This document shows positions 24,440 through 61,394 of a DNA stretch of 64,000 bases, piece after piece; position 1 is the stretch's first letter; each line of letters opens with the position of its first letter. Made by a program: the position numbers and the translations under genes. The notes beneath the pieces were generated by a model. The model saw nothing but the letters and a program-made list of their open reading frames with translations. It was not told the DNA's origin and ran no database searches. Source of the DNA: Stenotrophomonas lacuserhaii (GTDB lineage: Bacteria; Pseudomonadota; Gammaproteobacteria; Xanthomonadales; Xanthomonadaceae); contig NZ_JACSQS010000007.1 of assembly GCF_014836545.1 (NCBI RefSeq), forward strand, positions 1-64,000. The letters run 5' to 3'.

Positions 24440-24512
24440 GGGGCTGGCAGCGCACTGCATCCAATGCGCCGCCCGCTGCGTATCTGTCCATGAGCCCCCT
24501 GCGGACCCTGCC

Positions 24513-25286
24513 ATGCGCTCCCTTTTGCTTCCCTGCCTGCTGTTGCTTGCCGCCGCTGCTTCGCCTGCCGGTGCCGCAGTGCTGCGCGTGGAAGGCGAGG
24601 CGCTGGCGCCGAAGGGGGGCCGCGCGCTGTACCGCGAAACCCATTATCTGCAGGACGTGGGCGCGCAGCAGGCGCGGCTGGTGCTGTACCGCTGCAATGA
24701 CGGGCGCCCGTTCGCGCGCAAGTGGATGCCGGCCGCCGCCAATGCGCAGGCGCCGGATTTCGAGTTCATCGATGGCCGCGATGGACGCCGGGAGGCCGTG
24801 CAGGCCCAGGGCACGCAGCGCCGGGTCAGCATCCGCGCCGCCAGCGGTGCAGCCGATGCGGCCAAGACCCTGCAGATGCCTGGCGGCGGAGTGATCGACG
24901 CGGGATTCGATGCGGCCGTGCGCGCGCACTGGTCCACGCTGCTGCAGGGCGATACGGTGGCCTTGCCGTTCCTGCTCACCAGCCGCCAGCGCTGGGTGCC
25001 GGTGAAACTGCGCCGGGTCGGCGCGGTGGACTGGCAGGGCCAGCCGGCTGAACAGCTGCAGATGCAGCTGGATGCCTGGTTCGGCTTCGCGGTGCCGGCG
25101 GTCAACCTGGTCTACGCGCGTGCTGATCGGCGGCTGCTGCAGTTCGAGGGCACCGGCAACGTGCGCGATGCCGATGGCGGCTGGCCGCAGGTGCGCATCC
25201 GCTTCCCCGGCGCGCCGCAGCCCGTCAGCGAAGGCGCGCTTGCCGCCGCCCGCACGCAGCCCCTGGTGGCCTCATGCACGCGATGA
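24513..25286 (+). CDS. Exported protein of unknown function upstream of the ECF sigma gene
   Basis: The 257-residue protein has a clear signal peptide (MRSLLLPCLLLLAAAASPAGA). The mature part is soluble, rich in Arg and Ala, and ends with a single Cys near the C-terminus (VASCTR). I recognise no family motif. It starts at ATG 24513; the frame is open much further upstream, but the signal peptide fixes the likely start. It precedes the ECF sigma-anti-sigma pair by 67 bp on the same strand. It could be a periplasmic member of the same stress circuit (inference). Confidence 0.72.
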   Translation: MRSLLLPCLLLLAAAASPAGAAVLRVEGEALAPKGGRALYRETHYLQDVGAQQARLVLYRCNDGRPFARKWMPAAANAQAPDFEFIDGRDGRREAVQAQGTQRRVSIRAASGAADAAKTLQMPGGGVIDAGFDAAVRAHWSTLLQGDTVALPFLLTSRQRWVPVKLRRVGAVDWQGQPAEQLQMQLDAWFGFAVPAVNLVYARADRRLLQFEGTGNVRDADGGWPQVRIRFPGAPQPVSEGALAAARTQPLVASCTR

Positions 25287-25353
25287 TGTACTTGCGGTAT
25301 GCGCGCCGAGCAACGAGGATGCAGGTCTGCCCCTGTGCCACCCGGAGCCTGCA

Positions 25354-25923
25354 ATGCCCCAGCCGGACGCCCCTGACGGTGCCGACGCGCGCCGACTCGA
25401 CGCCCTGCTTGAACAGGTGGCGACGCAGGATCGCGATGCCTTTGAAGCGCTGTACCAGCAATCCGGGGGACGCCTTTTCGCGATCTGCCTGCGCCTGCTG
25501 CGTGACCGTGGCGAAGCCGAAGACGTGCTGCAGGAGGTCTTCGTGACCGTCTGGCACAAAGCCTCGCGCTTCGATCCCGGCAAGGCTTCGGCGATGACCT
25601 GGCTGTCGATGCTGGCCCGCAACCGGTCCATCGACCGCCTGCGCGCTGCACCGCCACGGGCACTCGACGATGTGTCCATCGCCGAGGAACTGCCCGATGG
25701 TGACCTGCAGCCGGCCCAGCTGGCCGAACGCAATGATGAAGACGCGCGGCTGCAGGATTGCATGCAGGCGCTGGAACCGCGCCGGCGCAGCCTGATCCGC
25801 GCCGCCTTCCTTGACGGCGCCAGCCACGATGAACTGGCGCGCCGCCTTGCCACTCCGCTGGGTACGGTGAAAAGCTGGATCCGCCGTGGCCTGACCCAGC
25901 TTCGGGTGTGCCTGGAACCATGA
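25354..25923 (+). CDS. ECF-family RNA polymerase sigma factor (SigK/RpoE-like)
   Basis: The 189-residue protein has sigma region 2 (about residues 30-95: GGRLFAICLRLLRDRGEAEDVLQEVFVTVW in outline) and region 4 (about 135-185, with the HTH ASHDELARRLATPLGTVKSWIRRGL). It lacks regions 1 and 3, as expected for ECF sigmas. The stop overlaps the start of an RskA-type anti-sigma gene (ATGA), a classical coupled pair. The lipid-modification operon starting at 26781 is its probable target, by analogy with ECF-controlled CFA/DUF1365/amine-oxidase operons in other Proteobacteria. Confidence 0.9.
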   Translation: MPQPDAPDGADARRLDALLEQVATQDRDAFEALYQQSGGRLFAICLRLLRDRGEAEDVLQEVFVTVWHKASRFDPGKASAMTWLSMLARNRSIDRLRAAPPRALDDVSIAEELPDGDLQPAQLAERNDEDARLQDCMQALEPRRRSLIRAAFLDGASHDELARRLATPLGTVKSWIRRGLTQLRVCLEP

Positions 25924-26693
25924 ACATCCGCGACCTCCACCACGAAGACGGGCAGCCGCCGAGCGCCGACCAGCAGGCCGGTGAGTACGTGCTGGGCGTG
26001 CTGGACGCCGCCCAACGCCGCGAGGCCGAGCAGCGCATCAGTTCCGACGCGGGTTTCGCGCGGCTGGTCGAACAATGGGAACAACGACTGGCGCCGCTGC
26101 TGGAAGAAGTGGGCAGCGCCCCGGTGCCGGCCCATGTGTGGCTGCGCGTGCGTCGCGAACTGGGCTGGGCGAGCTTCGAGACCGCCCCGAACGCTCGTCC
26201 GTGGCAGCGTACCGGCTTCTGGCAGGGTGCCACCGCACTGGCTGCCGCGCTGGCGCTGGTCGCGGTGTTCACCCGTCCGGCACCGGATGCCCCGGTACCC
26301 ACCCCGGTGGCCGTTACCCCGGCACCGACCCCGCCGGTCGAGCCGGAGCAGGCGACGCGCCCGGTTACCCCGCTGCTGCATGACGATGGCCGTGCCGGCT
26401 GGCTGGCCTCGGTCGATGCCACGCTGGGCAAGGTGCTGATGGTGCCGGTGCCGTCCGCCCCGGATGCCCAGGGCCGCGCGCCCGAGTTGTGGGTGATCCC
26501 GGCCGGTGGCGCACCGGTGTCGCTGGGCCTGGTCTCCAACGACCGCGCCCACACCGTGGACGTACCGGCCGCGCTGCGTTCGGCGCTGGTCAACGGTTCG
26601 GTACTGGCGATCACCCTGGAACCGTCGGCGGGCGCGCCGCATCCGGCGCCCAGTGGTCCGGTGGTCGCCAAGGGAGACATCGCCAACCTGTAA
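25920..26693 (+). CDS. RskA-type transmembrane anti-sigma factor
   Basis: The 257-residue protein has an N-terminal anti-sigma domain (EYVLGVLDAAQRREAEQRI near residue 23), one membrane helix (about 100-120, GATALAAALALVAVF), a Pro/Thr-rich linker and a C-terminal anti-sigma-K (RskA) domain with APELWVIPAGGAPVSLGLV. It should bind the sigma factor on the cytoplasmic side and release it on an envelope signal. The ATG at 25920 overlaps the sigma stop; a GTG at 25908 is the alternative. This is not a ChrR-type zinc cupin, which partners the best-known singlet-oxygen ECF factors. Confidence 0.86.
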   Translation: MNIRDLHHEDGQPPSADQQAGEYVLGVLDAAQRREAEQRISSDAGFARLVEQWEQRLAPLLEEVGSAPVPAHVWLRVRRELGWASFETAPNARPWQRTGFWQGATALAAALALVAVFTRPAPDAPVPTPVAVTPAPTPPVEPEQATRPVTPLLHDDGRAGWLASVDATLGKVLMVPVPSAPDAQGRAPELWVIPAGGAPVSLGLVSNDRAHTVDVPAALRSALVNGSVLAITLEPSAGAPHPAPSGPVVAKGDIANL

Positions 26694-26696
26694 CGA

Positions 26697-26718
26697 TCCG
26701 GAGAATTTATTTTCCGGA
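26697..26718 (+). terminator. Stem-loop between anti-sigma and desaturase genes
   Basis: TCCGGAGAA-TTTA-TTTTCCGGA forms nine pairs including one G-U. It has no U tail, so it could be a weak terminator, an mRNA end stabiliser or an operator dyad at the head of the lipid operon. Confidence 0.45.
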
Positions 26719-26780
26719 AGCTGCATCCATGGGGCCGCTGGCACCGTATCTCCTGTCAGTAGCTCCAGGAGGGATGCACG

Positions 26781-27743
26781 ATGTCGGCCACACCCGCAGT
26801 ACCGCCGCTCCGCCCGCGGCGCTGGTCCACCCTGTTGCGCTGGTTCGATACCGCCGCCAGGGAACCCAGCGCTGTCGACGCCGCCGAAGCCGATGGCAAG
26901 CGCATCGACTGGCTGCGCGCGCTGCCGTTCGTGGGCCTGCACCTGGCCTGCGTGGCGGTGATATGGGTGGGTGTGTCGTGGGTGGCGGTGGCCGTGGCCG
27001 CGCTGCTGTACGCGGTGCGGATGTTCGCCATCACCGGCTTCTACCACCGGTACTTCTCCCATCGGACCTTCCAGACCTCGCGTCCGGTGCAGTTCCTGTT
27101 CGCGGCCATCGGCGCGTCCAGCGTGCAGCGTGGGCCGTTGTGGTGGGCTGCGCACCACCGCAGCCACCATCGCCATGCGGACCAGCCGCTGGACCCGCAT
27201 TCGCCGCGGGAACACGGGTTCTGGTGGAGCCACATGGGCTGGTTCCTGACCCGCGAAGGGTTCCGCACCGACTGGGCGCGGATCCCCGACCTGGCCCGCT
27301 TCCCGGAACTGCGCTGGCTGGACCGCTTCGACACGCTGGTGCCGGTCGCGCTGGCCGCGGCGCTGTATGGCCTGGGCGCATTGTTGCAGCACGTGGCACC
27401 GTCGCTGGATACCAGCGGTCCGCAGATGCTGGTCTGGGGCTTCTTCGTCTCCACCGTGGTGCTGTTCCATGCCACGGTCACCATCAATTCCCTTGCCCAC
27501 CGCTTCGGCCGGCAGCGCTATGACACCGGCGATGACAGCCGCAACAACCTGTGGCTGGCCCTGCTCACCTTCGGCGAAGGCTGGCACAACAACCATCACT
27601 TCTTCCCGGGCACCGCGCGCCAGGGCTTCCGCTGGTGGGAAGTGGACATCACCTGGTATGGGCTGCGGCTGATGCAGTCGCTGCGGCTGGTGCACGGGCT
27701 CAAGCCAGTGCCTGCCTGGGTGCTGGCCAAGGCAAGGGACTGA
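26781..27743 (+). CDS. Membrane fatty-acid desaturase (delta-9/acyl-CoA desaturase type)
   Basis: The 320-residue membrane protein has the three His boxes of diiron desaturases: HRYFSH, HHRSHH and HNNHH. Hydrophobic segments lie around residues 45-80 and 185-240. It introduces a double bond into acyl chains in the inner membrane. A near-perfect ribosome site (AGGAGG) precedes the ATG. It is the first gene of an operon that continues for eight genes, and an unsaturated chain is the substrate that CFA-type methyltransferases need. That supports a pathway link. Confidence 0.9.
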   Translation: MSATPAVPPLRPRRWSTLLRWFDTAAREPSAVDAAEADGKRIDWLRALPFVGLHLACVAVIWVGVSWVAVAVAALLYAVRMFAITGFYHRYFSHRTFQTSRPVQFLFAAIGASSVQRGPLWWAAHHRSHHRHADQPLDPHSPREHGFWWSHMGWFLTREGFRTDWARIPDLARFPELRWLDRFDTLVPVALAAALYGLGALLQHVAPSLDTSGPQMLVWGFFVSTVVLFHATVTINSLAHRFGRQRYDTGDDSRNNLWLALLTFGEGWHNNHHFFPGTARQGFRWWEVDITWYGLRLMQSLRLVHGLKPVPAWVLAKARD

Positions 27744-27744
27744 C

Positions 27745-29025
27745 ATGCGCATCGCCGTCATTGGTTCGGGCATTGCCGGACTGGCCAGCGCATGGTGGCT
27801 GGACCCGCAGCACGAGGTCACCCTGTTCGAGGCCAACGATTACCTCGGTGGCCACACCCATACCCACGCGCTGCAGGTGGATGGGCGCACAGTATCGGTG
27901 GACACCGGCTTCATCGTGTTCAACCCGCAGCACTATCCGCTGCTGAGCGGTCTGTTCGACGAGCTCGGTGTCGCCTCGCAGGCGACCACGATGAGTTTCT
28001 CCGCCCACAGCGAACGCAGCGGGGTGGAGTACAACGCCACCTCGTTGAATGGGCTGTTCTGCCAGCGCCGCAACCTGTTGTCGCCGCGCTTCTGGGGGAT
28101 GCTGGCGGACCTGCGGCGCTTCTACCGCGAGGCGCCGGCCCTGCTGCAGGGCGACGAGGCCGGGCCGACGCTGGGCCAGTACCTCAACGACCATCATTAC
28201 GGCGAGGCCTTCATCGAAGAGCACCTGCTGCCGATGGCATCGGCCCTCTGGTCCTCGCCGGCCACCCGCGTGCGCGACTTCCCGGCGCGCTACCTGGTGC
28301 AGTTCATGGCCAACCACCAGATGCTCCAGCTGACCGGCCGCCCGCAATGGCGGGTGGTGCAGGGCGGATCGGCGCGTTACGTGGACGCGCTGCGCCAACG
28401 CTGGCATGTGCGCGAGCGGCTGGAGTGCCCGGTGCTGGCGGTGGAACGGCTGGTCGATGGCGTGCTGGTGCACACCGCAGCGGGCGCGGAAGGCTTCGAC
28501 CACGTCGTGATGGCCTGCCACAGTGACCAGGCACTGTGGCTGCTGCAGGATCCGGACATGCTGGAACGCAGCGTGCTCGGTGCCATCCGCTACCAGCCCA
28601 ACGAGGTCGTGCTGCATACCGATGCCAGTCTGTTGCCACGCAACCGCGCGGCGTGGGCGGCCTGGAACGCGCACGTGCCGCGCGATCCGGCCCAGGCCTG
28701 TACGGTGACCTATTGCATGAACCTGCTGCAGGGCCTGGACACGCCCACCCCGCTGCTGGTGACGCTCAACCGCAGTGAGGCGATCGACCCGTCCAAGGTG
28801 CTGCGTCGCCTGCGTTACGCGCACCCGGTGCACGACCACGCCATGGTCCGTGCGCAGCGGCGCTGGCATGAGGTGCAGGGGCGCCGACATACCTGGTTCG
28901 CCGGTGCGTACTGGGGCTGGGGCTTCCACGAAGATGGCATCCGCAGTGCGCGGCGCGTGGTGGATGCGCTGCACTCGGTGAGCATGCAAAGGCATTGGCC
29001 GCGTCACGAGGAAACCACCGCGTGA
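27745..29025 (+). CDS. FAD-dependent oxidoreductase (flavin amine-oxidase/desaturase-like)
   Basis: The 426-residue protein begins with a dinucleotide-binding fold, IAVIGSGIAGL (GxGxxG), followed by the acidic end of the second strand (LFEAND) and GGHTHTH. It belongs to the FAD/NAD(P)-binding amine-oxidase-like proteins that are regularly encoded beside DUF1365 and CFA-type methyltransferases. It starts one base after the desaturase stop. It may oxidise or desaturate a methylated acyl chain; the Ufa (furan fatty acid) pathway of Rhodobacter offers a precedent for flavin- and methyltransferase-dependent acyl modification, but equivalence is inference. Confidence 0.85.
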   Translation: MRIAVIGSGIAGLASAWWLDPQHEVTLFEANDYLGGHTHTHALQVDGRTVSVDTGFIVFNPQHYPLLSGLFDELGVASQATTMSFSAHSERSGVEYNATSLNGLFCQRRNLLSPRFWGMLADLRRFYREAPALLQGDEAGPTLGQYLNDHHYGEAFIEEHLLPMASALWSSPATRVRDFPARYLVQFMANHQMLQLTGRPQWRVVQGGSARYVDALRQRWHVRERLECPVLAVERLVDGVLVHTAAGAEGFDHVVMACHSDQALWLLQDPDMLERSVLGAIRYQPNEVVLHTDASLLPRNRAAWAAWNAHVPRDPAQACTVTYCMNLLQGLDTPTPLLVTLNRSEAIDPSKVLRRLRYAHPVHDHAMVRAQRRWHEVQGRRHTWFAGAYWGWGFHEDGIRSARRVVDALHSVSMQRHWPRHEETTA

Positions 29026-29786
29026 GCGCCAGTGCAATCTATCGTGGCGAGGTCGTGCACCGCAGGCACCTGCCGCACGCGCACGCCTTCCGCTATCCGA
29101 TCGCGCAGCTGTTGTTGGACCTGGAAGAAGTGGACCGCGTGTTCGACCGGCGTTGGCTGTGGTCGGTGGGTCGCCGCAACCTGGTCGAGTTCCGCCGCAG
29201 CGATTACCTGGGTGATCCCGACCAACCGCTGGCCGAGGCCGTGCGCGACCGCGTGCAGGGCGCGCTTGGCCACCGTCCGCTGGGTCCGGTGCGCCTGCTC
29301 GCCCACCTGCGCCACGCCGGTCATGTGTTCAATCCGGTCAGCTTCTACTACTGCCATGCGGTTGACGAAACACTGGAGTGCATCGTCGCCGAGATCACCA
29401 ACACGCCATGGAAGCAACGCCATGCGTACGTGTTGCCGGTCGCCGATGCGCAAGCGCGTGGCCGCGCGCTGCGCTGGCGTTTCGACAAACAGTTCCATGT
29501 TTCGCCGTTCATGCAGATGGACTGCGGTTACGACTGGCGCTTCACCGTGCCCGGCGACGACCTGCGCGTGCACATGCAGGTATGGCGCGACGGCCAGCGC
29601 CAGTTCGATGCGACCCAGTCGATGCAGCGCCGCGCGCTGGACGGCCGCGGGCTGGCCATGGTGCTGGCCCGTCATCCGCTGATGACCCTGCAGGTGGTCG
29701 GCGCGATCCATTGGCAGGCGATGCGCCTGTGGCTGAAACGCAATCCGGTCCACGACCATCCTTCGCTTGCTGGAAAAAACCAATGA
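29022..29786 (+). CDS. DUF1365 protein
   Basis: The 254-residue protein has the DUF1365 pattern: IYRGEVVHRRHLPHAHAFRYPI at the start (shown in part), NPVSFYYCHA, and VAEITNTPWKQRHAYVL. The GTG at 29022 overlaps the previous stop (GTGA). No catalytic function is established for the family. It nearly always sits next to an FAD oxidoreductase and a CFA-type methyltransferase, as here, which points to a role in the same lipid modification. Confidence 0.85.
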   Translation: MSASAIYRGEVVHRRHLPHAHAFRYPIAQLLLDLEEVDRVFDRRWLWSVGRRNLVEFRRSDYLGDPDQPLAEAVRDRVQGALGHRPLGPVRLLAHLRHAGHVFNPVSFYYCHAVDETLECIVAEITNTPWKQRHAYVLPVADAQARGRALRWRFDKQFHVSPFMQMDCGYDWRFTVPGDDLRVHMQVWRDGQRQFDATQSMQRRALDGRGLAMVLARHPLMTLQVVGAIHWQAMRLWLKRNPVHDHPSLAGKNQ

Positions 29787-31036
29787 ACGACATGAGCCAC
29801 TGCATGGCCCTGCCACGGCCCGGACGCCTGGATGCTTTCCTGCGCCGCCAGCTGCTGGCCAAGCTGGGCGCGCTGCGTGAGGGCCGCCTGCGGGTCCGCG
29901 ACGCACTGGGTGAGGTGGTGCTCGGCGCGCAGGGCAGCGGCCCGCTGGTGACGGTGACCATCGATGACCCGGCGTTCTATCGCGCGGTGGCGACCCAGGG
30001 CAGCGTCGGCGCCGGCGAAAGCTACATCCGTGGCCAGTGGCGCTGCGACGACCTGGTGGCGCTGGTGCAGCTGCTGGTGCGCAACCGCGAACTGCTCGAC
30101 GGCGTGGAACGCGGTCCGGCGCGGATCGGTGGCTGGGCGCTGAAGGCCTGGGCACAGCTGCGCCGCAACACCCGTGAAGGCAGCCGACGCAACATCGCCG
30201 CGCACTACGACCTGGGCAATCCGTTCTTCTCTCTGTTCCTTTCCAAGGACCTGATGTATTCCTCGGCGCTGTTCGAAGACGGCGATACGCTGGATGCGGC
30301 ATCGCAGCGCAAGCTCGCGCGCATCTGCGAACAGCTGCAGCTCAAGCCCACCGACCACGTACTGGAAATCGGTACCGGTTGGGGCGGGTTCGCGCTGTAC
30401 GCGGCACGCCACATCGGCTGCCGTGTAACCACCACCACCATATCGGTGGAGCAGCACGCGCTGGCCAGCCAGCGCATCGAGGCAGCTGGACTGCATGATC
30501 GGGTGACCTTGCTGCTGAAGGACTATCGCGACCTGGATGGCCAGTACGACAAGCTGGTGTCCATCGAGATGATCGAAGCGATCGGCGCGCAGTACCTGCA
30601 GACCTACTTCGCCACGCTGACGCGCCTGCTGAAGCCGGATGGATTGGCGCTGCTGCAGGCGATCACCATCGAAGACGAGCGTTACCGGCAGGCGCGGCGC
30701 AGCGTGGATTACATCAAGCGCTTCGTGTTCCCCGGCAGTTTCATCCCCTCGCTGAATGCCATGCTGGCGGCCAAGACCTGCAGCAGCGACCTGCAGCTGA
30801 TCGGCCAGATGGATTTCGGACAGTCCTACGCACTGACACTGCGCGCCTGGCGCGAGCGCTTCCTCGCCGAGCTGCCGGCGGTGCGTGCGCAAGGCTTCGA
30901 TGAAGACTTCATCCGCCTGTGGGAGTTCTATCTCGCGTACTGCGAAGGCGGCTTCCTGGAGCGCTCGATCGGTGTATCGCAGCTGTTGCTGGCGCGACCG
31001 GGCTACCGACCCCCGCCGCTGGCCGGAGCCCACTGA
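29783..31036 (+). CDS. Cyclopropane-fatty-acyl-phospholipid synthase family methyltransferase
   Basis: The 417-residue S-adenosylmethionine enzyme acts on unsaturated chains of membrane phospholipids. It has the Rossmann motif LEIGTGWGGFALYAA, post-motif IEMIEAIG, and the C-terminal FYLAYCEGGFLERSIG with the Cys position conserved in CFA synthases. The N-terminal lipid-interacting region is present. It overlaps the DUF1365 gene by 4 bp (ATGA). The product may be a cyclopropane, a methylated chain or a precursor of a furan fatty acid; sequence cannot decide. Confidence 0.88.
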   Translation: MNDMSHCMALPRPGRLDAFLRRQLLAKLGALREGRLRVRDALGEVVLGAQGSGPLVTVTIDDPAFYRAVATQGSVGAGESYIRGQWRCDDLVALVQLLVRNRELLDGVERGPARIGGWALKAWAQLRRNTREGSRRNIAAHYDLGNPFFSLFLSKDLMYSSALFEDGDTLDAASQRKLARICEQLQLKPTDHVLEIGTGWGGFALYAARHIGCRVTTTTISVEQHALASQRIEAAGLHDRVTLLLKDYRDLDGQYDKLVSIEMIEAIGAQYLQTYFATLTRLLKPDGLALLQAITIEDERYRQARRSVDYIKRFVFPGSFIPSLNAMLAAKTCSSDLQLIGQMDFGQSYALTLRAWRERFLAELPAVRAQGFDEDFIRLWEFYLAYCEGGFLERSIGVSQLLLARPGYRPPPLAGAH

Positions 31037-31037
31037 C

Positions 31038-31589
31038 ATGCACTTCTGGGGCAACCTGATCGGCAACCAGCTGGTGTGGTTCTGCGCGGTGGCCGGTGCC
31101 GGACGCGGGCTGTACTGGCCGGGGCTGCTGGCGGCGGCGGCCTTTGTGCTGAGCCAACTGCTGCTGTCCCCGCGCCCGGTGGTGGACCTGAAGCTGATCG
31201 CGTTGGCGATCGGTTGCGGGCTGGTGGTGGACGGCGTGGCCGGTGCTTCCGGACGGGTGGTGTATGCCGCAGGCAATGCCGAACGCGCGCTGGCGCCGAT
31301 CTGGATCCTTGCGTTGTGGGCATCGTTCGCGATGACCCTGACCGTCTCTTTCGCTGCCCTGCAGCGCCGGTGGCGGCTGGCCGTGCTGGTCGGCCTGCTG
31401 CTGGCCCCCCTGGCCTATGTGTCGGCCGCGCGGGGATTTTCTTCGGTGCGTTTCGCCACGCCGGCCTGGCAGGGCATCGCCTTGCTGGGTATCGGCTGGG
31501 CGCTCGCGCTGCCGCTGCTGGCAACCTGCGCGCGGCGCTGGCAGCGGGCATGCCGCGCCGAGCCCATGGAAACAGGAGAAGCACGATGA
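31038..31589 (+). CDS. DUF2878 membrane protein
   Basis: The 183-residue protein is highly hydrophobic, with about five membrane helices, and starts MHFWGNLIGNQLVWF, the DUF2878 family's N-terminal signature. It starts 1 bp after the methyltransferase stop and overlaps the next gene by 4 bp. Function unknown, but the family co-occurs with CFA-type lipid operons. Confidence 0.8.
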   Translation: MHFWGNLIGNQLVWFCAVAGAGRGLYWPGLLAAAAFVLSQLLLSPRPVVDLKLIALAIGCGLVVDGVAGASGRVVYAAGNAERALAPIWILALWASFAMTLTVSFAALQRRWRLAVLVGLLLAPLAYVSAARGFSSVRFATPAWQGIALLGIGWALALPLLATCARRWQRACRAEPMETGEAR

Positions 31590-32380
31590 AGCTGTTGTGG
31601 TGGGTGTGGCTGTATGCCGCCGTGGTGATGTGCTGGGGCTGGTGGTGGCAACGCCGGCACCAGAACATCGGCGTGGTGGATGTGTTGTGGGCCAAGAGCG
31701 TGGCCGCCGCCGCGCTGCTGCTGGCAGTGCTGGGGGACGGCGCGCTGCTGCCGCGGCTGGCGCTGGGCGTGCTGGGCGGGTTGTGGGGAGCCCGTCTGGC
31801 ACTGCACCTGTGGCGACGCGTGCGCAGCGAAGAAGAGGACGGTCGCTACCGCTACCTGCGCGATCACTGGCAGGGCCACCAGGGCAAGATCTTCGGCTTC
31901 TTCCAGGCCCAGGCGCTGCTGGTGGTGCTGTTCGCCCTGCCGTTCATCGCAGTGGCGCAGAACCCGCGCGGCGAGGGTATCGGCTGGGTGCTGGCAGCGG
32001 TGGCGATGTGGGTGCTGAGCGTGGGTGGGGAGAGTCTGGCCGACCGCCAGCTGGCACGCTTCCGCGCCGACCCGGCAAACAAGGGCAGCACCTGCCGCGA
32101 AGGCCTGTGGCGCTATTCGCGGCATCCCAACTACTTCTTCGAATGGCTGCACTGGTTCACCTATGTGCTGCTGGCCGTGGGTTCCCCGCTGTGGTGGCTG
32201 GCCTGCGCCGGCCCGGTGGTGATGTACGTGTTCCTGCGCTGGCTGAGCGGCGTGCCGTTCACTGAAAAACAGGCCCTGCGCAGCCGCGGTGAGGACTACC
32301 GCGAGTACCAGCGCAGCACCTCGATGATCTTTCCCTGGTTCCCCAGGAAATCCGCACACTCCAAGGAGCTGCCCCGATGA
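31586..32380 (+). CDS. DUF1295 (steroid 5-alpha-reductase-like) membrane protein
   Basis: The 264-residue protein has about six membrane helices and the conserved C-terminal block GLWRYSRHPNYFFEW of the DUF1295 group, which is related to steroid 5-alpha-reductases and isoprenylcysteine methyltransferases. This suggests it may reduce or methylate a lipid substrate in the membrane. It is coupled to both neighbours by ATGA overlaps. Confidence 0.84.
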   Translation: MKLLWWVWLYAAVVMCWGWWWQRRHQNIGVVDVLWAKSVAAAALLLAVLGDGALLPRLALGVLGGLWGARLALHLWRRVRSEEEDGRYRYLRDHWQGHQGKIFGFFQAQALLVVLFALPFIAVAQNPRGEGIGWVLAAVAMWVLSVGGESLADRQLARFRADPANKGSTCREGLWRYSRHPNYFFEWLHWFTYVLLAVGSPLWWLACAGPVVMYVFLRWLSGVPFTEKQALRSRGEDYREYQRSTSMIFPWFPRKSAHSKELPR

Positions 32381-33450
32381 GCACCCAATTCCAGAGCCTG
32401 CCGCTGCCGGACCATGCGGCGGGGCTGACCGGCCTGGCCGAACGCGGGCTGCTGCCGGACGCGCTGCTGCGTTACGGTATCCGCCGCCAGTGCGCGCAAC
32501 GCCTGCGCGAAGAGTTCGAAGGCGGCACCGAAGGCCAGGCAACGCGCTTTTCCGAGCGCATCACCGAACTGGCGGGAAGCCCGTTGGCCCTGCACGTGGA
32601 TGCGGCCAACCGCCAGCACTACGAAGTACCGGCAGCGTTCTTCCAGGCCTGCCTTGGCAAGCGGTTGAAGTACAGCAGTTGTTACTACCGCACCGGCATG
32701 GAGACGCTCGACCAGGCCGAAGAGGCGATGCTGGAACTTTATGCGGAGCGTGCCGGGCTTGACGATGGACAGGACATCCTGGAACTCGGCTGTGGCTGGG
32801 GATCGCTGACCTTGTGGATGGCCGAACGCTATCCACACGCACGCATCAGCGCGGTGTCCAATTCGCACGGGCAACGTGCGCACATCGAGGCGCAGTGCCA
32901 GGCACGCGGGCTGCGCAACGTGAAGGTACTGACCCGCGACGTCAACCAGCTGGACCTGCCCGCGAACTCCTTTGACCGCGCGGTGTCCATCGAGATGTTC
33001 GAACACATGCGCAACTACGACCGCCTGCTCGGCCGGATCGCCCGCTGGCTGCGCAGCGATGGGGCGTTGTTCGTGCATATCTTCGTGCATCGCACCGCGA
33101 TGTATCCCTTTGAAACCGAGGGCGAGGACAACTGGATGGGGCGGCACTTCTTCACCGGTGGCCTGATGCCGGCAGCGGACACGCTGCTGCACTTCCAGCA
33201 CGACCTGCAGCTGCAGCAGCGCTGGTTGCTGGATGGCACGCACTACCAGCGCACGGCCAACCACTGGCTGCAGAACCAGGACAGCCAGCGCGATGCGTTG
33301 ATGCCGGTGCTGCGCCAGACCTACGGTGATGCCGCCGCTGCGTTGTGGTTCCAGCGCTGGCGGATGTTCTGGATGGCCTGCGCCGAACTGTTCGGTTATG
33401 AGAAGGGCCAGCAGTGGCTGGTGGCCCATTACCTGTTCCGTCCCCGTTGA
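32377..33450 (+). CDS. Second CFA/coclaurine-N-methyltransferase-like SAM methyltransferase
   Basis: The 357-residue protein has a CFA-superfamily methyltransferase fold: LELGCGWGSLTLWMAER (SAM binding) and SIEMFEHMRNYD. The C-terminus, WRMFWMACAELFGYEKGQQW, resembles the coclaurine-N-methyltransferase-like branch rather than true CFA synthases and lacks the YCEGGF block of the operon's first methyltransferase. The two enzymes therefore probably act on different atoms or substrates. The start overlaps the DUF1295 stop by 4 bp. Confidence 0.83.
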   Translation: MSTQFQSLPLPDHAAGLTGLAERGLLPDALLRYGIRRQCAQRLREEFEGGTEGQATRFSERITELAGSPLALHVDAANRQHYEVPAAFFQACLGKRLKYSSCYYRTGMETLDQAEEAMLELYAERAGLDDGQDILELGCGWGSLTLWMAERYPHARISAVSNSHGQRAHIEAQCQARGLRNVKVLTRDVNQLDLPANSFDRAVSIEMFEHMRNYDRLLGRIARWLRSDGALFVHIFVHRTAMYPFETEGEDNWMGRHFFTGGLMPAADTLLHFQHDLQLQQRWLLDGTHYQRTANHWLQNQDSQRDALMPVLRQTYGDAAAALWFQRWRMFWMACAELFGYEKGQQWLVAHYLFRPR

Positions 33451-33461
33451 AGGAGAACGCC

Positions 33462-33995
33462 ATGCGTCTGTCCAGCCTGCTTCCCGTGATCGCGATGGCG
33501 TTGTCGGCCAGCGCCTGTTCGTCCAGTCCGGAACGTCCATTGCCCCGCGCGAGCGCGGTGGACGTGCCGCGCTTCATGGGGGATTGGTATGTCATCGCAC
33601 AGATTCCCACCTTCATCGAACGCAAGGCGTTTGATTCGGTGGAACGCTATGCACTGCGGCCTGACGGGCGCATCCAGACCACCTTCACCTACCGCAAGGG
33701 CAGCTTCGATGCACCGCTGAAGACGATGCATCCGGTGGGTCGGGTGGAGGAGGAAGGCAACGGCGCGGTGTGGGGCATGCAGTTCATCTGGCCGATCCAG
33801 GCCGAGTACGTGATTTCATGGCTGGATGCGGATTACCAGCAGACCATCGTGGCGCGCAGCAAGCGTGACTACGTCTGGTACATGGCGCGCACGCCGCAGG
33901 TCAGCGCGGCCGACTACCAGCAGGCCATCGAGCGCATCGCCGCAATGGGTTACGACACCAGCAAGATCCGCAAGGTGCCGCAGTCAGAGCGGTAG
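33462..33995 (+). CDS. blc: Outer-membrane lipocalin (Blc-type lipoprotein)
   Basis: The 177-residue lipoprotein has lipobox LSASAC and the lipocalin signature FMGDWYVIAQIP (GxW). Blc proteins bind lysophospholipids or fatty acids at the outer membrane under envelope stress. It has AAGGAG 7 bp before its ATG and ends the lipid operon. It may carry the modified lipid or buffer free chains. Its TAG stop is part of the GTAG head of a SMAG repeat. Confidence 0.86.
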   Translation: MRLSSLLPVIAMALSASACSSSPERPLPRASAVDVPRFMGDWYVIAQIPTFIERKAFDSVERYALRPDGRIQTTFTYRKGSFDAPLKTMHPVGRVEEEGNGAVWGMQFIWPIQAEYVISWLDADYQQTIVARSKRDYVWYMARTPQVSAADYQQAIERIAAMGYDTSKIRKVPQSER

Positions 33996-34099
33996 CGCCG
34001 AGCCATGCTCGGCGGGCGCAGCGGCAAAGGCAATGGCGTGACGACCAGCGGTCGTCACCTACCAGGGGCCAGGGCATGACGGCCAGCGGCCGTCACTAC
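33992..34099. repeat. Three SMAG-like repeats after blc
   Basis: GTAG-CGCCGAGC-CAT-GCTCGGCG at 33992-34014, then two in reverse orientation: GTGACGACC-AGC-GGTCGTCAC-CTAC (34038-34062) and TGACGGCC-AGC-GGCCGTCA-CTAC (34077-34099). Three different stem families stand side by side. Confidence 0.85.
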
Positions 34100-34195
34100 C
34101 GGGGCGCCGCCTTGCCTGCGAAGTGCGCCAGCGATCTCATGCGGTGAGAGGCGCTCTTGCCATAATCAGGGTCGAATCCAGCAGAGGGTCGGCCC

Positions 34196-36085
34196 ATGGC
34201 AGCCAAGTACTGCGATCTGGTCATGAAGGGCGGCATCACCAGCGGCATCGTGTATCCCAATGCGGTGCTGGCGCTGGCCAGGGAATACCGTTTCAAGAGC
34301 ATCGGCGGCACCTCGGCCGGGGCCATCGCGGCGGCGGTGGCGGCGGCTGCCGCGCTCGGTGATCGCCGTCGCCAGGCGGGCGAGGCGGTGGGGCCGCAGG
34401 CCGGTTTCGAGGGACTGGCCGCTGTGTCGGCCCAGCTGTCCACGCGGGGCTTCATCCATGGGTTGTTCCAGCCTGCCCGCGGCGCGCGCGCGGCGTACCG
34501 TTTGCTGGTGGTGCTGGCCAGCCATGCGGGTTGGCCCCGCAAACTGCTGTGCCTGGTGGCGGCAGTGTTCACCATCGCACCGTTGGAAGTGCTGCTTTCG
34601 CTGTTCCTGCTGCTGGGCATCGGCCATGGCGCCGGCGGCGTAGCGGGCATGCTGGCTGCCCTCCTGCCTTCGCTGCTGTGCGCCTACGGCGCGGGTGTGG
34701 CCGGCGCGATGCTGCGGGTGGCGCGGGTGGCCCGTGGCAACCTGCTCGGGCTGTGCAATGGCCGCAGCGACGACCCACGGCGCCCCGCGCTGACCGACTG
34801 GCTGCACGATGCGCTGCAGCGGTTGTCGGGCAAGCCGGACGACCTGCCGCTGACCTTCGCCGACCTGCACGCCGCGCCGCGCTATGCGGACGAACCGCAG
34901 GATGACCGGGCCATCACCCTGCAGATGATCAGTACCTGCGTGTCGCACAACGAGCCGCGCACCCTGCCGTTCTCCGAAGCGCGCTTCTGGTTCCTGCGCG
35001 AAGAGTTCGACCGCCTGTTTCCGCGCAGCGTGGTGGACTGGTTGGTGGCCGATGCCGGTGCACCGGAGCAGGTTGACGGAAGGCTGTACTACCGGCTGCC
35101 GCCGGCAGGGCAGCTGCCGGTGCTGGTCGCCACGCGGATGAGCCTCAGCTTTCCGCTGCTGATCAGCGCGGTGCCGCTGCATGAGCCGGCGCGCCACCTT
35201 GCACCGGCGCAGGGCAGCCGTGCCGAGCCCGGACGTGGCGGGAAGAACGTGGCCGACAGCATGGAGGGCCTGGCCAGCGGGGGGCAGCAGGGAACGACCG
35301 CGGCCGGCTCATCGATCGCCGGCTACCGCCGTTGCTGGTTCTCCGATGGTGGTATCAGCAGCAATTTCCCGATCCATCTGTTCGACGCCGCGCTGCCGCG
35401 CTGGCCGACCTTCGCCATCAATCTGGTTTACCCCGGCGATGCGCGGGAAGTCCCCGAAGCCGGCGATGCGCAGCAGGCGCTGGAAGGCTCGGTGGTACTG
35501 CCAACCGGCAATCGCGAACGCTGGCAGCGCGGTTACCGCGATATCGCCTCGCCAATGGCCGCCACCGAGCTGACCCGTTTCCTGTTTGCCATCATCGCCA
35601 CCATGCAGAACTGGCGCGATCTGCTGCAGGCCCGCGCGCCCGGCTACCGCGACCGCATCGTGCATGTCGCCCTGGAAGGCGACGAGGGCGGCATGAACCT
35701 GGACATGCCGCAGGAGGTGCTCGGTCGCATCGCGCAGAAGGGCACGCTGGCCGGCGAGCGCTTCTGCCGCTTCTCCTTCGATAACCACTATTGGATACGT
35801 TGGCGCAATGCCGCTTCGGCCTATCAGCGCTACACGCTGGAAGTGTCGCGCACCGATGACGCGGGCCAGCAGGTGGTGGCCTACCGCAGCGCGTATGCCA
35901 GCGTTGCGGCAGGGCAACCGGCACCGCCATCGTATCCGCTGGGATCGCAGGAAAAGCGTCGCGCATCGCAGGCGCTGTATGCGCTGATGGTGGAGCAGGG
36001 CGCAAGCTGGGACGACTGCGGTCCGGACCTCACCGACGGCGCCCCGCGCCCGCTGCCACAGATGAAGGTCACCCCGATCTACTAG
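34196..36085 (+). CDS. Large patatin-like phospholipase with internal membrane segments
   Basis: The 629-residue protein has the patatin serine-aspartate dyad. The glycine-rich oxyanion segment KGGITSGIVYPNAV is at the N-terminus, the nucleophile Ser40 is in GGTSAGA, and Asp384 is in SDGGISSNFP. Between them, about residues 115-180, are two strongly hydrophobic stretches that look like membrane helices. It is a probable lipid hydrolase at the inner membrane. Proteins of this type are sometimes annotated RpoH suppressor; the sequence gives no support for that role. It is next to the lipid operon but has its own start after a repeat cluster. Confidence 0.84.
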   Translation: MAAKYCDLVMKGGITSGIVYPNAVLALAREYRFKSIGGTSAGAIAAAVAAAAALGDRRRQAGEAVGPQAGFEGLAAVSAQLSTRGFIHGLFQPARGARAAYRLLVVLASHAGWPRKLLCLVAAVFTIAPLEVLLSLFLLLGIGHGAGGVAGMLAALLPSLLCAYGAGVAGAMLRVARVARGNLLGLCNGRSDDPRRPALTDWLHDALQRLSGKPDDLPLTFADLHAAPRYADEPQDDRAITLQMISTCVSHNEPRTLPFSEARFWFLREEFDRLFPRSVVDWLVADAGAPEQVDGRLYYRLPPAGQLPVLVATRMSLSFPLLISAVPLHEPARHLAPAQGSRAEPGRGGKNVADSMEGLASGGQQGTTAAGSSIAGYRRCWFSDGGISSNFPIHLFDAALPRWPTFAINLVYPGDAREVPEAGDAQQALEGSVVLPTGNRERWQRGYRDIASPMAATELTRFLFAIIATMQNWRDLLQARAPGYRDRIVHVALEGDEGGMNLDMPQEVLGRIAQKGTLAGERFCRFSFDNHYWIRWRNAASAYQRYTLEVSRTDDAGQQVVAYRSAYASVAAGQPAPPSYPLGSQEKRRASQALYALMVEQGASWDDCGPDLTDGAPRPLPQMKVTPIY

Positions 36086-55278: not shown

Positions 55279-55354
55279 GCCGCTTTAGCTCAGTTGGTAG
55301 AGCAACTGTCTTGTAAACAGTAGGTCATCCGTTCGATTCGGATAAGCGGCACCA
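55279..55354 (+). tRNA. tRNA-Thr(TGT)
   Basis: The gene folds as a standard cloverleaf: acceptor GCCGCTT/AAGCGGC, D-arm GCTC-AGTTGGTA-GAGC, anticodon stem ACTGT/ACAGT with loop C-T-TGT-A-A (anticodon TGT at 55312-55314), and a T-arm with GTTCGATTC. Discriminator A; CCA is encoded. Reads ACA threonine codons. It is the integration target of the element that follows. Confidence 0.97.
55330..55354 (+). other. Putative attL: 3' end of tRNA-Thr
   Basis: Integrases of the P4 type recombine at the 3' half of tRNA genes, so the T-arm to CCA is the expected attachment core. The second copy should lie at the far island end, outside this window, and none is seen here. Inferred from the neighbouring integrase. 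Confidence 0.5.
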
Positions 55355-55527
55355 TCTTCTGCTCCGCTGGTGTCCACAGACATCCTGCAGGCACAATCAA
55401 CCAGCTGATATAGCGGGTTTTTCTGTGCCCAAGCGTACATCGAAGTCCAGTGCCATCCGCGCAAGATGGGGGTGCAACTCGGGGTACAAAGGGAATTTCG
55501 ACTGTCCGGCAGGAGGATGTACCCCAA

Positions 55528-56754
55528 ATGGCTCGTAAGTCCTTGACGGATATGGCGGCCCGAAACGCCAAGGGTAAGGAGAAGCCTTACAAGTTGTCGG
55601 CTGGGTCTGGCCTCTATTTACTGGTGATGCCCAACGGCTCCCGGTATTGGAGGATGAAGTACGCCTTTGCTGGCAAGGAAAAGTTGCTCAGCATCGGTGT
55701 CTATCCTGAGATCGCGCTCAAGGAGGCGCTGGAGAAGCGAGATGCGGCGCGTGTGCAGCTGCGAGCAGGTCAGGACCCATCCGAAGAAAAGCAGCTCCAG
55801 AAGCTCAAGGCGGAGCTCTCCTTGGATGATCGCTTTGAAGCGGTTGCTCTGGAATGGCTGGAGAGCCGAAGGGATCTGGCAGCCAGTACGTGGACCAAGG
55901 CCAAGTGGATGCTGGAGACCTACGCCTTCCCTTGGTTGGGGCGACGGCCAATTGATGGCATCAGCACTGCCGAAGTATTGGCAGTACTACGGCGGCTGGA
56001 GAGCCAGGACAAGATCGAATCCACACAGCGCCTGCGCCAGATTTGTGGCCAGGTATTCCGGTATGCCGTGGCCACAGGTCGGCTTGATAGAGATCCGACC
56101 AGCGCTCTAAGGGGCGCGTTGAAGACTGCCAAGAATCGGCACTATGCCTCGATCACGGAGCCTGCCAAGGTCGGTGAACTGCTCAGGGCAATCGACGGCT
56201 ATACGGGCCAGTTCACGACACTGTGTGCCTTGAGGCTGGCTCCTTTGGTATTCACCCGTCCTGGGGAGCTCCGAAAGGCCGAGTGGAGCGAGGTCGATCT
56301 AGAAGCGCGTCAATGGTGCATCCCCGGCGAGAAGATGAAGATGGGGGTAGCCCATATTGTTCCGCTTTCGCGTCAGGCGGTAGCGATCCTGAGGGAGCTT
56401 CAGCCTGTTACAGGAAAAGGTCGCTTCGTGTTCCCATCGATACGTAGCGGTCGTGATCCGATGAGCGAGAACACGGTGAACGCCGCGCTTCGGCGCCTTG
56501 GCTATGGCACGGACGATATGACCGGTCATGGCTTCCGTAGCATGGCGTCTACCCTGTTGCATGAGATGGGCTGGACCTCCGATGCCATCGAGCGGCAGTT
56601 GGCCCACTCTGAAAGGAATCCCATCAAGGCGGCCTACAACCGTGCTGAGCACCTGCCTGAGCGTAGGGAGATGATGCAGGCGTGGGCTGATTACCTGGAC
56701 CGCTTGCGTGAAAAGCAGTCCAGGGCTACCCAGCTCTGCGCTAAGCGCGCTTGA
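55528..56754 (+). CDS. P4-type tyrosine integrase of a genomic island
   Basis: The 408-residue recombinase has an N-terminal DUF4102 arm-binding domain (residues ~1-90, LSAGSGLYLLVMPNGSRYW), a core-binding domain and a catalytic domain. The active-site residues can be placed: Arg244 (TRPGELR), His334-xx-Arg337 (GHGFRS), His360 (LAHSER) and Tyr370 (AYNRAEH). It directs insertion at the adjacent tRNA-Thr. The ATG at 55528 is preceded by AGGAGG. Base composition falls from here on, a sign of transfer. Confidence 0.95.
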   Translation: MARKSLTDMAARNAKGKEKPYKLSAGSGLYLLVMPNGSRYWRMKYAFAGKEKLLSIGVYPEIALKEALEKRDAARVQLRAGQDPSEEKQLQKLKAELSLDDRFEAVALEWLESRRDLAASTWTKAKWMLETYAFPWLGRRPIDGISTAEVLAVLRRLESQDKIESTQRLRQICGQVFRYAVATGRLDRDPTSALRGALKTAKNRHYASITEPAKVGELLRAIDGYTGQFTTLCALRLAPLVFTRPGELRKAEWSEVDLEARQWCIPGEKMKMGVAHIVPLSRQAVAILRELQPVTGKGRFVFPSIRSGRDPMSENTVNAALRRLGYGTDDMTGHGFRSMASTLLHEMGWTSDAIERQLAHSERNPIKAAYNRAEHLPERREMMQAWADYLDRLREKQSRATQLCAKRA

Positions 56755-56806
56755 CCCCCTCCTACCCTTACTCCCAATCGAGTAGCGGTAGGACGGGGGG
56801 GGTGTC

Positions 56807-56885
56807 TGCATCAATTGAGATGATGCAAAAAAACTTGCATTGGCGTTTGTGTCGTGCGAAAGTTTGCATCATGAACATTGATGCA
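56807..56885 (+). promoter_or_regulatory. Two identical palindromes TGCATCA-N7-TGATGCA at the R-M operon start
   Basis: Perfect copies lie at 56807-56827 and 56865-56885, 58 bp centre to centre, with a half-like TTGCAT between (56835-56840). The second overlaps the ATG of the half-HsdS gene. Identical arms and identical spacer length show a specific protein-binding pair, probably an autoregulatory operator. No gene encoding an obvious cognate repressor lies in the window, apart from the HTH-carrying RhuM protein. Confidence 0.75.
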
Positions 56886-57476
56886 GAAAATTTCATGGTT
56901 GGAGAGCTGGTGTCCATTCAAGCGGGCTACCCCTTTCGCGGCTCCATTGAGGAGTCGGTCGATGGTGACGTTCTGGCGGTGCAGATGAGGGATGTTGACC
57001 TTGACCATGGGGTCAAATGGTCTGACGTCACGCGCACCACGCTTGCAGGCCGCAAACCACCTGATTGGCTCAAGGCTGGGGACATACTGTTCGTCGCTAA
57101 AGGTGCTCGGTTCTATGCCGTATGCATAGATGAGCCATCGAGCCCTGCTGTGTGCAGCCCTCACTTCTTTCTGCTCCGAGTGGCCTCCCAAGGTCTATTG
57201 CTGCCTGCTTTCCTGGCGTGGCAAATAAACCAACCGCCATTTCAGCGTCAGCTTCAGCAAGTCGCTGAAGGCAGCAGCCAGTTGAGTATCCGCCGCCCCG
57301 TACTGGAATCGCTCACGCTCTGCGTGCCGTCGCTGGTGGATCAGCAACGCATCGTTGCCCTGGCTGACCTTACCCGTCAGGAGCGCCAGGTGCTCAATCA
57401 GCTCATTCACAACCGCGAGCAGCAACTTCAAGCGCTCGCAGAGAGTCTTGTGCATGCCGCACAGGCCAGTCACTGA
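56871..57476 (+). CDS. Half-length HsdS-like specificity subunit
   Basis: The 201-residue protein has one target-recognition domain (about residues 10-140, with GELVSIQAGYPFRGSIEES) and one coiled-coil conserved region (DQQRIVALADLTRQERQVL, then LIHNREQQLQALAESL), while normal HsdS subunits have two of each. Such half subunits can act as dimers and would recognise a palindromic site. A separate full-length HsdS is encoded in the same operon. ATG at 56871, placed inside the second palindrome. Confidence 0.8.
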   Translation: MNIDAENFMVGELVSIQAGYPFRGSIEESVDGDVLAVQMRDVDLDHGVKWSDVTRTTLAGRKPPDWLKAGDILFVAKGARFYAVCIDEPSSPAVCSPHFFLLRVASQGLLLPAFLAWQINQPPFQRQLQQVAEGSSQLSIRRPVLESLTLCVPSLVDQQRIVALADLTRQERQVLNQLIHNREQQLQALAESLVHAAQASH

Positions 57477-57498
57477 ACAACGCAGGAGCTCAAACATC

Positions 57499-60175: not shown

Positions 60176-61394
60176 GGAATGGCACCGCTCAACGCTGGGC
60201 GAGATTGCCCGTATCACCTCGGGCGGCACGCCCGACCGGAGCAAGCCCGAATACTGGGGTGGTGACATCCCCTGGGTTACGACGGGCGAGATTCAGTTCA
60301 ACACCATCACTGATACCGGCGAGAAGATCACGGCAGCTGGCCTGCAAAATTCATCGGCCAAGCTGTTCCCGCTCGGCACGTTGCTGATGGCCATGTATGG
60401 GCAGGGCAAGACGCGTGGTCAGGTGGCGAAGCTGGGGATTGAAGCTGCTACCAATCAGGCGTGCGCAGCCATCCTACTTAACGATAATAACGACCCTGAC
60501 TATTTCTTCCAGTACCTGTCCTCGCAATACGAAGAGATTCGCGAGTTGGGTAATGCGGGAACCCAGAAGAATCTAAGCGGTGGCATCCTCAAAGGGGTAC
60601 TCGTTCCTGTGCCGCCTTATCGTGAGCAGCGTCGAATCGCCCAAGTCCTCACCACCTGGGATCAAGCCATTGCCACTGCGGAGCGGCTGCTGGCGAACAG
60701 CCAGCGGTGCACCCGTGACCTGATGGCGTCTATTTTGTCAGGCCGCCGCCGTTTTCGTGAGTTCACGGATAAATGGCGTTATGTAGATCTCGATGCCGTC
60801 TTTGTGCGGATTACGCGCAAGAACAGCACGCAGAACACCAATGTGTTGACGATCTCGGCGGAGCATGGGCTCATCAGTCAACGCGACTATTTCAACAAGT
60901 CCGTCGCCAGTGCCAACCTCAGCGGCTACACGCTGCTGCATCGGTATGACTTCGCCTACAACAAGAGCTACTCGGCTGGCTACCCGATGGGGGCAATCAA
61001 ACCGCTGTTGTCCTATGACGCAGGTGTAGTGTCGAGTCTCTACCTATGCTTCAGGATGCGCAGCGACGTGGACGCCGATTTCGACTTCTTCCGTCATTAC
61101 TTTGAAGCAGGCTTGCTGGATCAGGAGATTGAAGGCATCGCTCAAGAAGGTGCGCGAAATCATGGCCTGCTGAACGTGAGCGTGACCGATTTCTTCAAAC
61201 TGCAGCTCCACATTCCCACCGCGCCAGAACAGCGACGCATTGCTGAGGCCATCAACGTCGCGAGGGCAGATGAAGCACGGCTGAAAGCTCAAGTGCAGGC
61301 ATTGCGTCAAGAAAAAGCTGCCCTCATGTCCCAGCTCCTGACCGGCAAGCGCCGCGTCAAGTTGACGGTCAGCGAAACAGAGGTGCAGGCATGA
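60165..61394 (+). CDS. hsdS: Type I restriction-modification specificity subunit
   Basis: The 409-residue protein has two target-recognition domains (about residues 5-150 and 195-350), each followed by a coiled-coil conserved region: PPYREQRRIAQVLTTWDQAI and TAPEQRRIAEAINVARADEA. This is the full HsdS layout recognising a bipartite site. ATG at 60165 with GGAGG five bases upstream; a GTG at 60162 is in frame. It overlaps rhuM by 11 bp and hsdR by 4 bp (ATGA). Confidence 0.94.
   Translation: MLPKEWHRSTLGEIARITSGGTPDRSKPEYWGGDIPWVTTGEIQFNTITDTGEKITAAGLQNSSAKLFPLGTLLMAMYGQGKTRGQVAKLGIEAATNQACAAILLNDNNDPDYFFQYLSSQYEEIRELGNAGTQKNLSGGILKGVLVPVPPYREQRRIAQVLTTWDQAIATAERLLANSQRCTRDLMASILSGRRRFREFTDKWRYVDLDAVFVRITRKNSTQNTNVLTISAEHGLISQRDYFNKSVASANLSGYTLLHRYDFAYNKSYSAGYPMGAIKPLLSYDAGVVSSLYLCFRMRSDVDADFDFFRHYFEAGLLDQEIEGIAQEGARNHGLLNVSVTDFFKLQLHIPTAPEQRRIAEAINVARADEARLKAQVQALRQEKAALMSQLLTGKRRVKLTVSETEVQA

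Follow-up and report, generated by a model that had tools for sequence, protein, structure and literature searches.

Which product is made by an operon of lipid-modifying enzymes that is headed by an extracytoplasmic function (ECF) sigma factor and an RskA-type anti-sigma factor, and how is such an operon switched? The question is raised by eleven genes on the forward strand, at 24513-33995, of a 64,000-nucleotide stretch of Stenotrophomonas lacuserhaii DNA (assembly GCF_014836545.1, contig NZ_JACSQS010000007.1, positions 1 to 64,000), which was analysed as a whole and is called the window here. We consider it likely that these genes produce furan fatty acids in response to stress, under a SigK/RskA-type switch of their own. 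The gene identities, promoter-like sites, cysteines, tree positions and the proposed exchange of switches described below are read from sequence. Literature was searched among papers under open licence.

A SigK-like sigma factor and its anti-sigma factor

The sigma factor gene (25354-25923, on the + strand like all features of the locus) matches Sigma70_r2 and Sigma70_r4_2, and the best solved relative of its product is SigK of Mycobacterium tuberculosis (4nqw, 1.1e-32), followed by RpoE of Rhodobacter sphaeroides (5.8e-24). The adjacent anti-sigma factor (25920-26693) matches RskA_C with 63.9 bits at a cut-off of 29.4, and one hydrophobic stretch before RskA_C was spotted by eye. It has no match in the PDB at E 0.1, and neither an HxxxCxxC zinc motif nor a cupin was found in it by sequence and Pfam. 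ChrR (TIGR02451) was not found in the window genome, in agreement with the preliminary description of this DNA, which had called the sensor RskA-like. Three cysteines characterize the sigma factor: Cys136 and Cys186 align with the redox pair C133/C183 of M. tuberculosis SigK, and together with Cys45 they are present in all 23 RskA-type sigma factors compared, versus 0 of 22 ChrR-type sigma factors with cysteines at the same positions.

Promoter-like sites and putative regulon

Two sites of the form TGCATCC-N16-CGTATCT lie in the locus. One (24456-24485) starts 57 nt upstream of the gene for an exported protein, which opens the regulatory unit, and in relatives the site also precedes this gene, the sigma gene or the desaturase gene; the other (26722-26751) starts 59 nt upstream of the desaturase gene. 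Throughout the genome of 3.93 Mb, TGCATCC-N15..17-CGTATCT occurs three times, compared with no occurrence in a reversed control. The third of these sites, on contig C11, ends 40 nt short of the GTG codon that starts a gene whose product reads as FAS1-like, and a fourth site with the strict core (C11:430268) has no clear gene downstream. Scanning the window with up to three mismatches gave 17 matches against a shuffle mean of 18.9, and therefore only its two perfect sites are regarded as meaningful. A looser TGCATC-N17-CGTATC with one mismatch, which gave 17 matches versus four in the reversed control, was not used to widen the regulon.

For comparison, 60 loci of the family were collected, mostly the best-matching of the 106 genomes with a DUF1365 match among 198 family genomes. 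Classified by gene content and motif, 22 carry an RskA-type pair near the operon, 22 a ChrR-type pair, and 16 neither within 4 kb. TGCATCC-N16-CGTA occurs 80 times in these loci; 20 single-base shuffles yielded 0.35 occurrences on average. Of the 22 RskA loci, 21 have it upstream of the desaturase gene. Among the 22 ChrR loci, 18 have it before the desaturase or exported-protein gene and 18 before the sigma gene, and it is present in four of the 16 loci without an adjacent sigma factor. RskA loci contain 31 sites, 16 of them with the -10 form CGTATC, compared with 2 of 39 in ChrR loci.

A survey of FAS1 genes (45 genomes searched, 30 of 35 matches fetched) revealed the site in front of FAS1 in 10 of 15 RskA-set and 8 of 11 ChrR-set genomes with a FAS1 match. 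The mycobacterial FAS1 proteins MPT83 and MPT70 are SigK targets (PMC7509140), and the fasciclin protein RSP_1409 of R. sphaeroides rises under photooxidative stress (PMC7074977). As a separate observation, several ChrR-type genomes of the same genus (L157 among them) carry the site upstream of a gene read as a TspO/MBR-like membrane protein, some 8 kb away from ChrR and its sigma gene; no site before such a gene was found in the window genome.

Probable exchange of switches on one operon

Related operons had previously been described as being under ChrR-type sensors in other Proteobacteria, and sigma-ChrR pairs were indeed found at the operons of relatives, in family and phylum loci as well as in the literature. 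ChrR (TIGR02451) was detected in all 22 genomes of the ChrR set, 20 times above the cut-off and twice in pieces, and none of these genomes has a sigma factor more than 38% identical to that of the window. Among the 23 genomes of the RskA set, which include the window genome, ChrR exceeded the cut-off in two (G019 and G178), with one weak match in G039. A midpoint-rooted tree was built from five concatenated operon proteins of 61 loci, and the 16 tips without either switch were pruned. On this tree the RskA and ChrR labels need at least five changes, and shuffled labels need 15.2 on average with a minimum of 10. The window and locus L057 (genome G179) carry RskA, and their sister clade carries ChrR; members of the same genus have the operon divergent from the ChrR pair, as does S. 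maltophilia.

This distribution suggests that SigK/RskA and ChrR, two unrelated switches, have taken each other's place at one operon and that its promoter was retained. We give somewhat less than an even chance to the alternative that nothing was replaced, an ancestor having held both switches and each lineage having lost one or the other. The two RskA-type genomes that hold both would fit such a history, but it leaves unaccounted why the surviving switch stands beside the operon each time, and relocation would still be required. Two single genomes may be recorded here. G029, of the same genus, lacks both operon and switch: DUF1365 gave no match there, and no sigma factor close to the SigK type was found (best identity 32%). 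In G081 the ChrR match (contig C3:68133-68782) is split in two, and chrR may be broken or frame-shifted there.

The -35 recognition helix

The helix of sigma region 4 reads the -35 box. For the ChrR-type loci of the family we had expected TGATCC, the published ChrR-type promoter of Pseudomonas syringae; this was rejected, since the family sites read TGCATCC. Outside the order, 18 ChrR loci have a readable sigma factor, and TGATCC-N16-CGTA stands beside ufaD in 11 of them versus TGCATCC in none. The helix of these sigma factors reads KSRxR[L/M/A], with a final arginine in 0 of 18; ChrR-type sigma factors of the family have KS[HS]xRR (22 of 22) and proteobacterial RskA-type sigma factors KSWIRR (25 of 25). 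The arginine common to the family ChrR-type and the SigK-type sigma factors is a candidate specificity residue by correlation only: the family ChrR-type sigma factors form one clade (support 1.0), and its appearance therefore counts as a single event.

Occurrence beyond the family

DUF1365 is present in 187 of 397 genomes of the phylum. From the DUF1365 matches listed, 40 phylum loci were chosen by hand so as to spread over families, and among these an RskA-type switch was found in L176 only, from the same order as the window organism. Further cases are located on plasmids. A Burkholderia anthina plasmid carries SigK/RskA (RskA_C 80.8 bits) with the same gene set and TGCATCC-N16-CGTAT upstream of the sigma, DUF1295 and FAD (flavin adenine dinucleotide) enzyme genes. 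On one Streptomyces plasmid sigK, an RskA_C anti-sigma factor, the FAD enzyme, DUF1365, a cyclopropane fatty acid (CFA) synthase-type gene and DUF1295 lie together, and a second one has the latter four without a sigma factor nearby. On an Acinetobacter plasmid the set from desaturase to second methylase adjoins a histidine kinase gene; no sigma factor lies nearby on a Cupriavidus plasmid, and a Shinella plasmid has ChrR. In L189 and L199, outside the order, TGCATCC-N16-CGTA stands upstream of ufaD with no ChrR or sigma factor found nearby; these sites may be controlled by a distant SigK-type pair.

The product of the operon

In the published pathway, UfaM, UfaD and UfaO convert cis-vaccenate to a 9M5-furan fatty acid, UfaO being the DUF1365 protein, and FufM adds a second methyl group to the furan fatty acid, as demonstrated on 9M5-furan (PMC7380195). 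The corresponding genes of the window encode a fatty acid desaturase, which would supply the cis double bond (26781-27743; FA_desaturase, 90.3 bits), a UfaD-type FAD oxidoreductase (27745-29025; NAD_binding_8 and Amino_oxidase, the latter with 72.4 bits), a UfaO-type protein with a GTG start (29022-29786; DUF1365, PF07103, 280.9 bits at a cut-off of 25), a first methyltransferase annotated as CFA synthase (cfa1, 29783-31036; CMAS, 254.9 bits) and a second S-adenosylmethionine-dependent methyltransferase (cfa2, 32377-33450; CMAS, 135.2 bits). Because the order desaturase, ufaD, ufaO, cfa1, cfa2 is identical in 60 of 60 family loci, the operon is not a chance assembly. ufaD adjoins ufaO in all 60 family and all 40 phylum loci, and in 35 of the latter a cfa1-like gene is also beside them (missing in L199, L205, L206, L207 and L213). 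A furan fatty acid is our best guess for the product. The earlier view that no single known pathway explains the gene content fully is not supported, as UfaD-UfaO-UfaM and FufM are published (PMC7380195) and the desaturase can supply the cis bond; this one pathway accounts for most of the operon, the DUF1295, DUF2878, exported and lipocalin proteins excepted.

The second methylase had been taken for a CFA-type enzyme, and CFA synthases are not its closest relatives: the plant coclaurine N-methyltransferase (CNMT) 6gkv matches with 9e-77, compared with 2e-23 for the CFA synthase 6bqc. We take At4g33110 of Arabidopsis to be a member of the CNMT family. FufM is reported to be 37.9% identical to At4g33110 (PMC10940516), and a FufM role is therefore proposed for the CNMT-like second methylase, which is probably a FufM-type furan methylase. 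Plant N-methyltransferases as best solved relatives, weak matches of the DUF1295 protein to PEMT/ICMT and 5-alpha-reductase models, and the position of the two genes apart from ufaDOM in some genomes would also fit a reading in which the furan pathway is real but second methylase and DUF1295 act elsewhere, for instance in methylation of lipid head-group nitrogen. We regard this as unlikely in view of the likeness between At4g33110 and FufM, a methylase of 9M5-furan (PMC10940516), the presence of the pair in or next to ufa loci of Xanthomonadales, Burkholderia, Acinetobacter and Shinella, and the joint induction of CFA1, the CNMT CFA2/CPLD27, DUF1365 and DUF1295 by singlet oxygen in Chlamydomonas (PMC4067076).

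For the first methylase, a tree of 29 sequences was calculated, to which 15 of the 40 phylum loci were offered and from which L202 was removed by a length and stop filter. The window enzyme groups with 18 other operon-linked enzymes, which come from distant Proteobacteria and, in two cases, from Streptomyces; Cfa of E. coli and the Cfa of the window genome itself (contig C8, 51% identical to the former) fall outside this clade. At the positions of E. coli Cfa C139 and H266, which we take to form the bicarbonate site, the 19 linked enzymes all have S or A and Q, respectively, and both true Cfa proteins have C and H. In five Rhodobacteraceae-like genomes the best match joins the clade in each case (support 0.89), carries Q and lies directly downstream of an open reading frame that reads as photolyase-like. 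The pattern EQIY together with S or A at the Cys139 position is found in all clade members (19 operon-linked and five photolyase-linked); CEHIY is kept by E. coli Cfa, the genome's own Cfa and three Rhodobacteraceae-like paralogues. This arrangement is also that of R. sphaeroides, in which RSP_2144 (UfaM) neighbours RSP_2143 (phrA) (locus tags from PMC7074977). We assign cfa1 of the window to the UfaM type, distinct from true Cfa, on its tree position and residues.

The same evidence bears on the view of the S. maltophilia authors, according to which this would be an ordinary cyclopropane operon with two CFA-type enzymes, CfaS1 and CfaS2, making cyclopropanes and all other genes accessory (PMC11832516). 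Both methylases do match CMAS. This view is nevertheless very improbable: Cfa is encoded separately in this genome and falls outside the pathway clade, C139 and H266 are replaced by S and Q in the operon enzyme, the second enzyme is CNMT-like, and UfaD and UfaO have demonstrated roles in furan synthesis (PMC7380195). From the suggestion of a furan or cyclopropane product in the preliminary description, the furan is retained as the best guess, and the cyclopropane is weakened by the tree position and the two substitutions.

Proposed mechanism

For the product, the order of the reactions, induction and its signal, and the roles of lipocalin and exported protein, we propose the following model. 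At rest, the SigK-like sigma factor would be held by the membrane anti-sigma factor. An envelope or redox signal would free it to read the TGCATCC-N16-CGTAT promoters, which stand before the unit of exported-protein, sigma and anti-sigma genes, before the lipid operon of eight genes and before the distant FAS1 gene. The desaturase would introduce a cis double bond into phospholipid acyl chains, the UfaM-type enzyme would methylate the chain at this bond and shift it, UfaD would add a second double bond, UfaO would close the furan by oxygen insertion, and the FufM-type enzyme would attach a second methyl group. Lipocalin and exported protein may handle lipids in the envelope. That the sigma/anti-sigma pair is a passenger and another sigma factor reads the operon is hardly credible, for although different groups of ECF sigma factors have similar sites and 4 of 16 loci without an adjacent sigma factor retain the site, identical boxes stand at the sigma factor's own unit and at the lipid operon, and SigK/RskA and ChrR are almost exclusive in their presence, with no ChrR in the window genome.

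Several points weigh against a stress-induced furan operon under a SigK-type switch. The sigma factor remains below the NCBIfam cut-off for the SigK subfamily (158.8 versus 226 bits), as does the anti-sigma factor below its own (73.9 versus 100), and at one RskA-type locus, L096, an exact site is missing. In M. tuberculosis, the redox state of C133/C183 governs SigK-RskA, oxidation tightening the complex and reduction freeing SigK (PMC7509140); plain activation by oxidants is therefore not predicted from the cysteines. Furthermore, the ChrR version in S. maltophilia left singlet-oxygen tolerance unchanged and altered only menadione tolerance and ceftazidime susceptibility (PMC11832516).

In a wider sense, furan fatty acid synthesis and FAS1 may form an ancient core of both the SigK/RskA and the ChrR regulons. 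The two switches would then be interchangeable and trade places while the promoter stays the same, and a ChrR-type sigma factor newly arriving at the operon would have re-evolved its -35 helix for the SigK-type site. We put this forward tentatively. If true, it would also account for the regulon of SigK in M. tuberculosis and would match the gene set induced by green algae under singlet oxygen. The locus would offer a natural experiment in regulator replacement, with one operon, one promoter, two unrelated switches and a candidate specificity residue.

Remaining genes and neighbouring features

The exported or periplasmic protein (24513-25286) has no match in Pfam or NCBIfam, and a single-sequence AlphaFold (AF2) model was uninformative (mean pLDDT 38). 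Its 12 homologues are 37-58% identical to the window copy, and it is probably the counterpart of Smlt2375. The other genes encode a DUF2878 protein (31038-31589; 116.4 bits), a DUF1295 protein with a weak steroid 5-alpha-reductase match (31586-32380; 229.7 bits) and a lipocalin (33462-33995; Lipocalin_2, 153.0 bits). Pfam and the coordinates bear out the gene list and order given in the preliminary description, with all eleven genes and families present. Its nine-gene operon comprises eight genes after the anti-sigma gene and reaches nine only when the exported-protein gene is counted. Overlaps of 4 bp, which it ascribed to most genes, exist at five of ten junctions (sigma/anti-sigma, FAD/DUF1365, DUF1365/cfa1, DUF2878/DUF1295 and DUF1295/cfa2); two junctions have gaps of 1 nt, and 11 nt separate cfa2 and lipocalin, 67 nt exported protein and sigma factor, and 87 nt anti-sigma factor and desaturase.

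Downstream of the operon, palindromic repeats beginning with GTAG (33989-34110), presumably resembling the SMAG-type repetitive extragenic palindromic elements of Stenotrophomonas, lie between the lipocalin gene and a patatin-like phospholipase gene (34196-36085), which among the 60 family loci has a counterpart at this place in L057 only. Elsewhere in the window, a tRNA-Thr gene is followed by genes for a phage-type integrase, HsdM, a RhuM-family protein and HsdS (55279-61394; GC content 0.58-0.61 compared with about 0.68). This region is a genomic island at a tRNA gene with type I restriction-modification genes.

Comparison with known systems

No paper linking SigK/RskA to furan fatty acids or describing an exchange on this operon was found among the matches listed from the open-licence literature; subscription papers, including the 2008 paper on the SigK regulon, were outside this scope, and the negative result is therefore weak evidence of novelty. 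The SAK1-dependent singlet oxygen genes of Chlamydomonas include CFA1, the CNMT-type CFA2 (CPLD27), DUF1365 and DUF1295, with a fasciclin gene co-induced; this is a eukaryote with a different regulator, likened to the window operon by annotation only (PMC4067076). The furan pathway of R. sphaeroides and Rhodopseudomonas palustris has the same enzyme families, and the order ufaD-ufaO-ufaM equals RPA2571-2569, whereas the window has an extra desaturase, DUF2878, DUF1295 and lipocalin and the FufM-type gene inside the operon (PMC7380195). RpoE-ChrR of R. capsulatus, induced by photooxidative stress, is closer to SigK-RskA than to RpoE-ChrR of R. sphaeroides, an exchange noticed earlier; R. capsulatus lacks homologues of RSP_1090/1091, and its pair is hence not on this operon (PMC7074977).

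The -10 box CGTAT of the window is unlike the SigK form of M. tuberculosis, and the window sigma factor lies below the NCBIfam SigK cut-off. We take the mycobacterial -10 box to be CCGAAT. Likewise, Rv0449c-Rv0446c are presumably an FAD enzyme, DUF1365, CFA and DUF1295, an assumption that covers all of these but Rv0447c; no open-licence paper connecting these annotations was found. Precisely these four enzyme genes adjoin sigK and its anti-sigma gene on the first Streptomyces plasmid. The SigK operon of M. tuberculosis is autoregulated from the Rv0449c promoter, and the systems of M. tuberculosis and Yersinia share with the window both redox cysteines, the RskA_C anti-sigma factor and a FAS1 target (MPT83) (PMC7509140).

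The closest parallel in gene content is smlt2375-smlt2367 of S. maltophilia KJ, nine genes with matching annotation and order (periplasmic protein, desaturase, FAD enzyme, hypothetical protein, Cfa, two hypothetical membrane proteins, Cfa and lipocalin). In a chrR mutant the expression of all nine is 165- to 697-fold higher, and additional loss of the sigma gene reverses this induction (PMC11832516). The nine-gene set itself is already known from there. Control differs, with rpoEc-chrR-chrA and a divergent sigma gene in S. maltophilia and SigK/RskA between genes one and two in the window; in that paper the word furan does not occur, UfaM is unmentioned and the methylases are called CfaS1 and CfaS2 (PMC11832516). 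The reading proposed here would give a chemical interpretation to the S. maltophilia operon, which is known to alter menadione tolerance and ceftazidime susceptibility.

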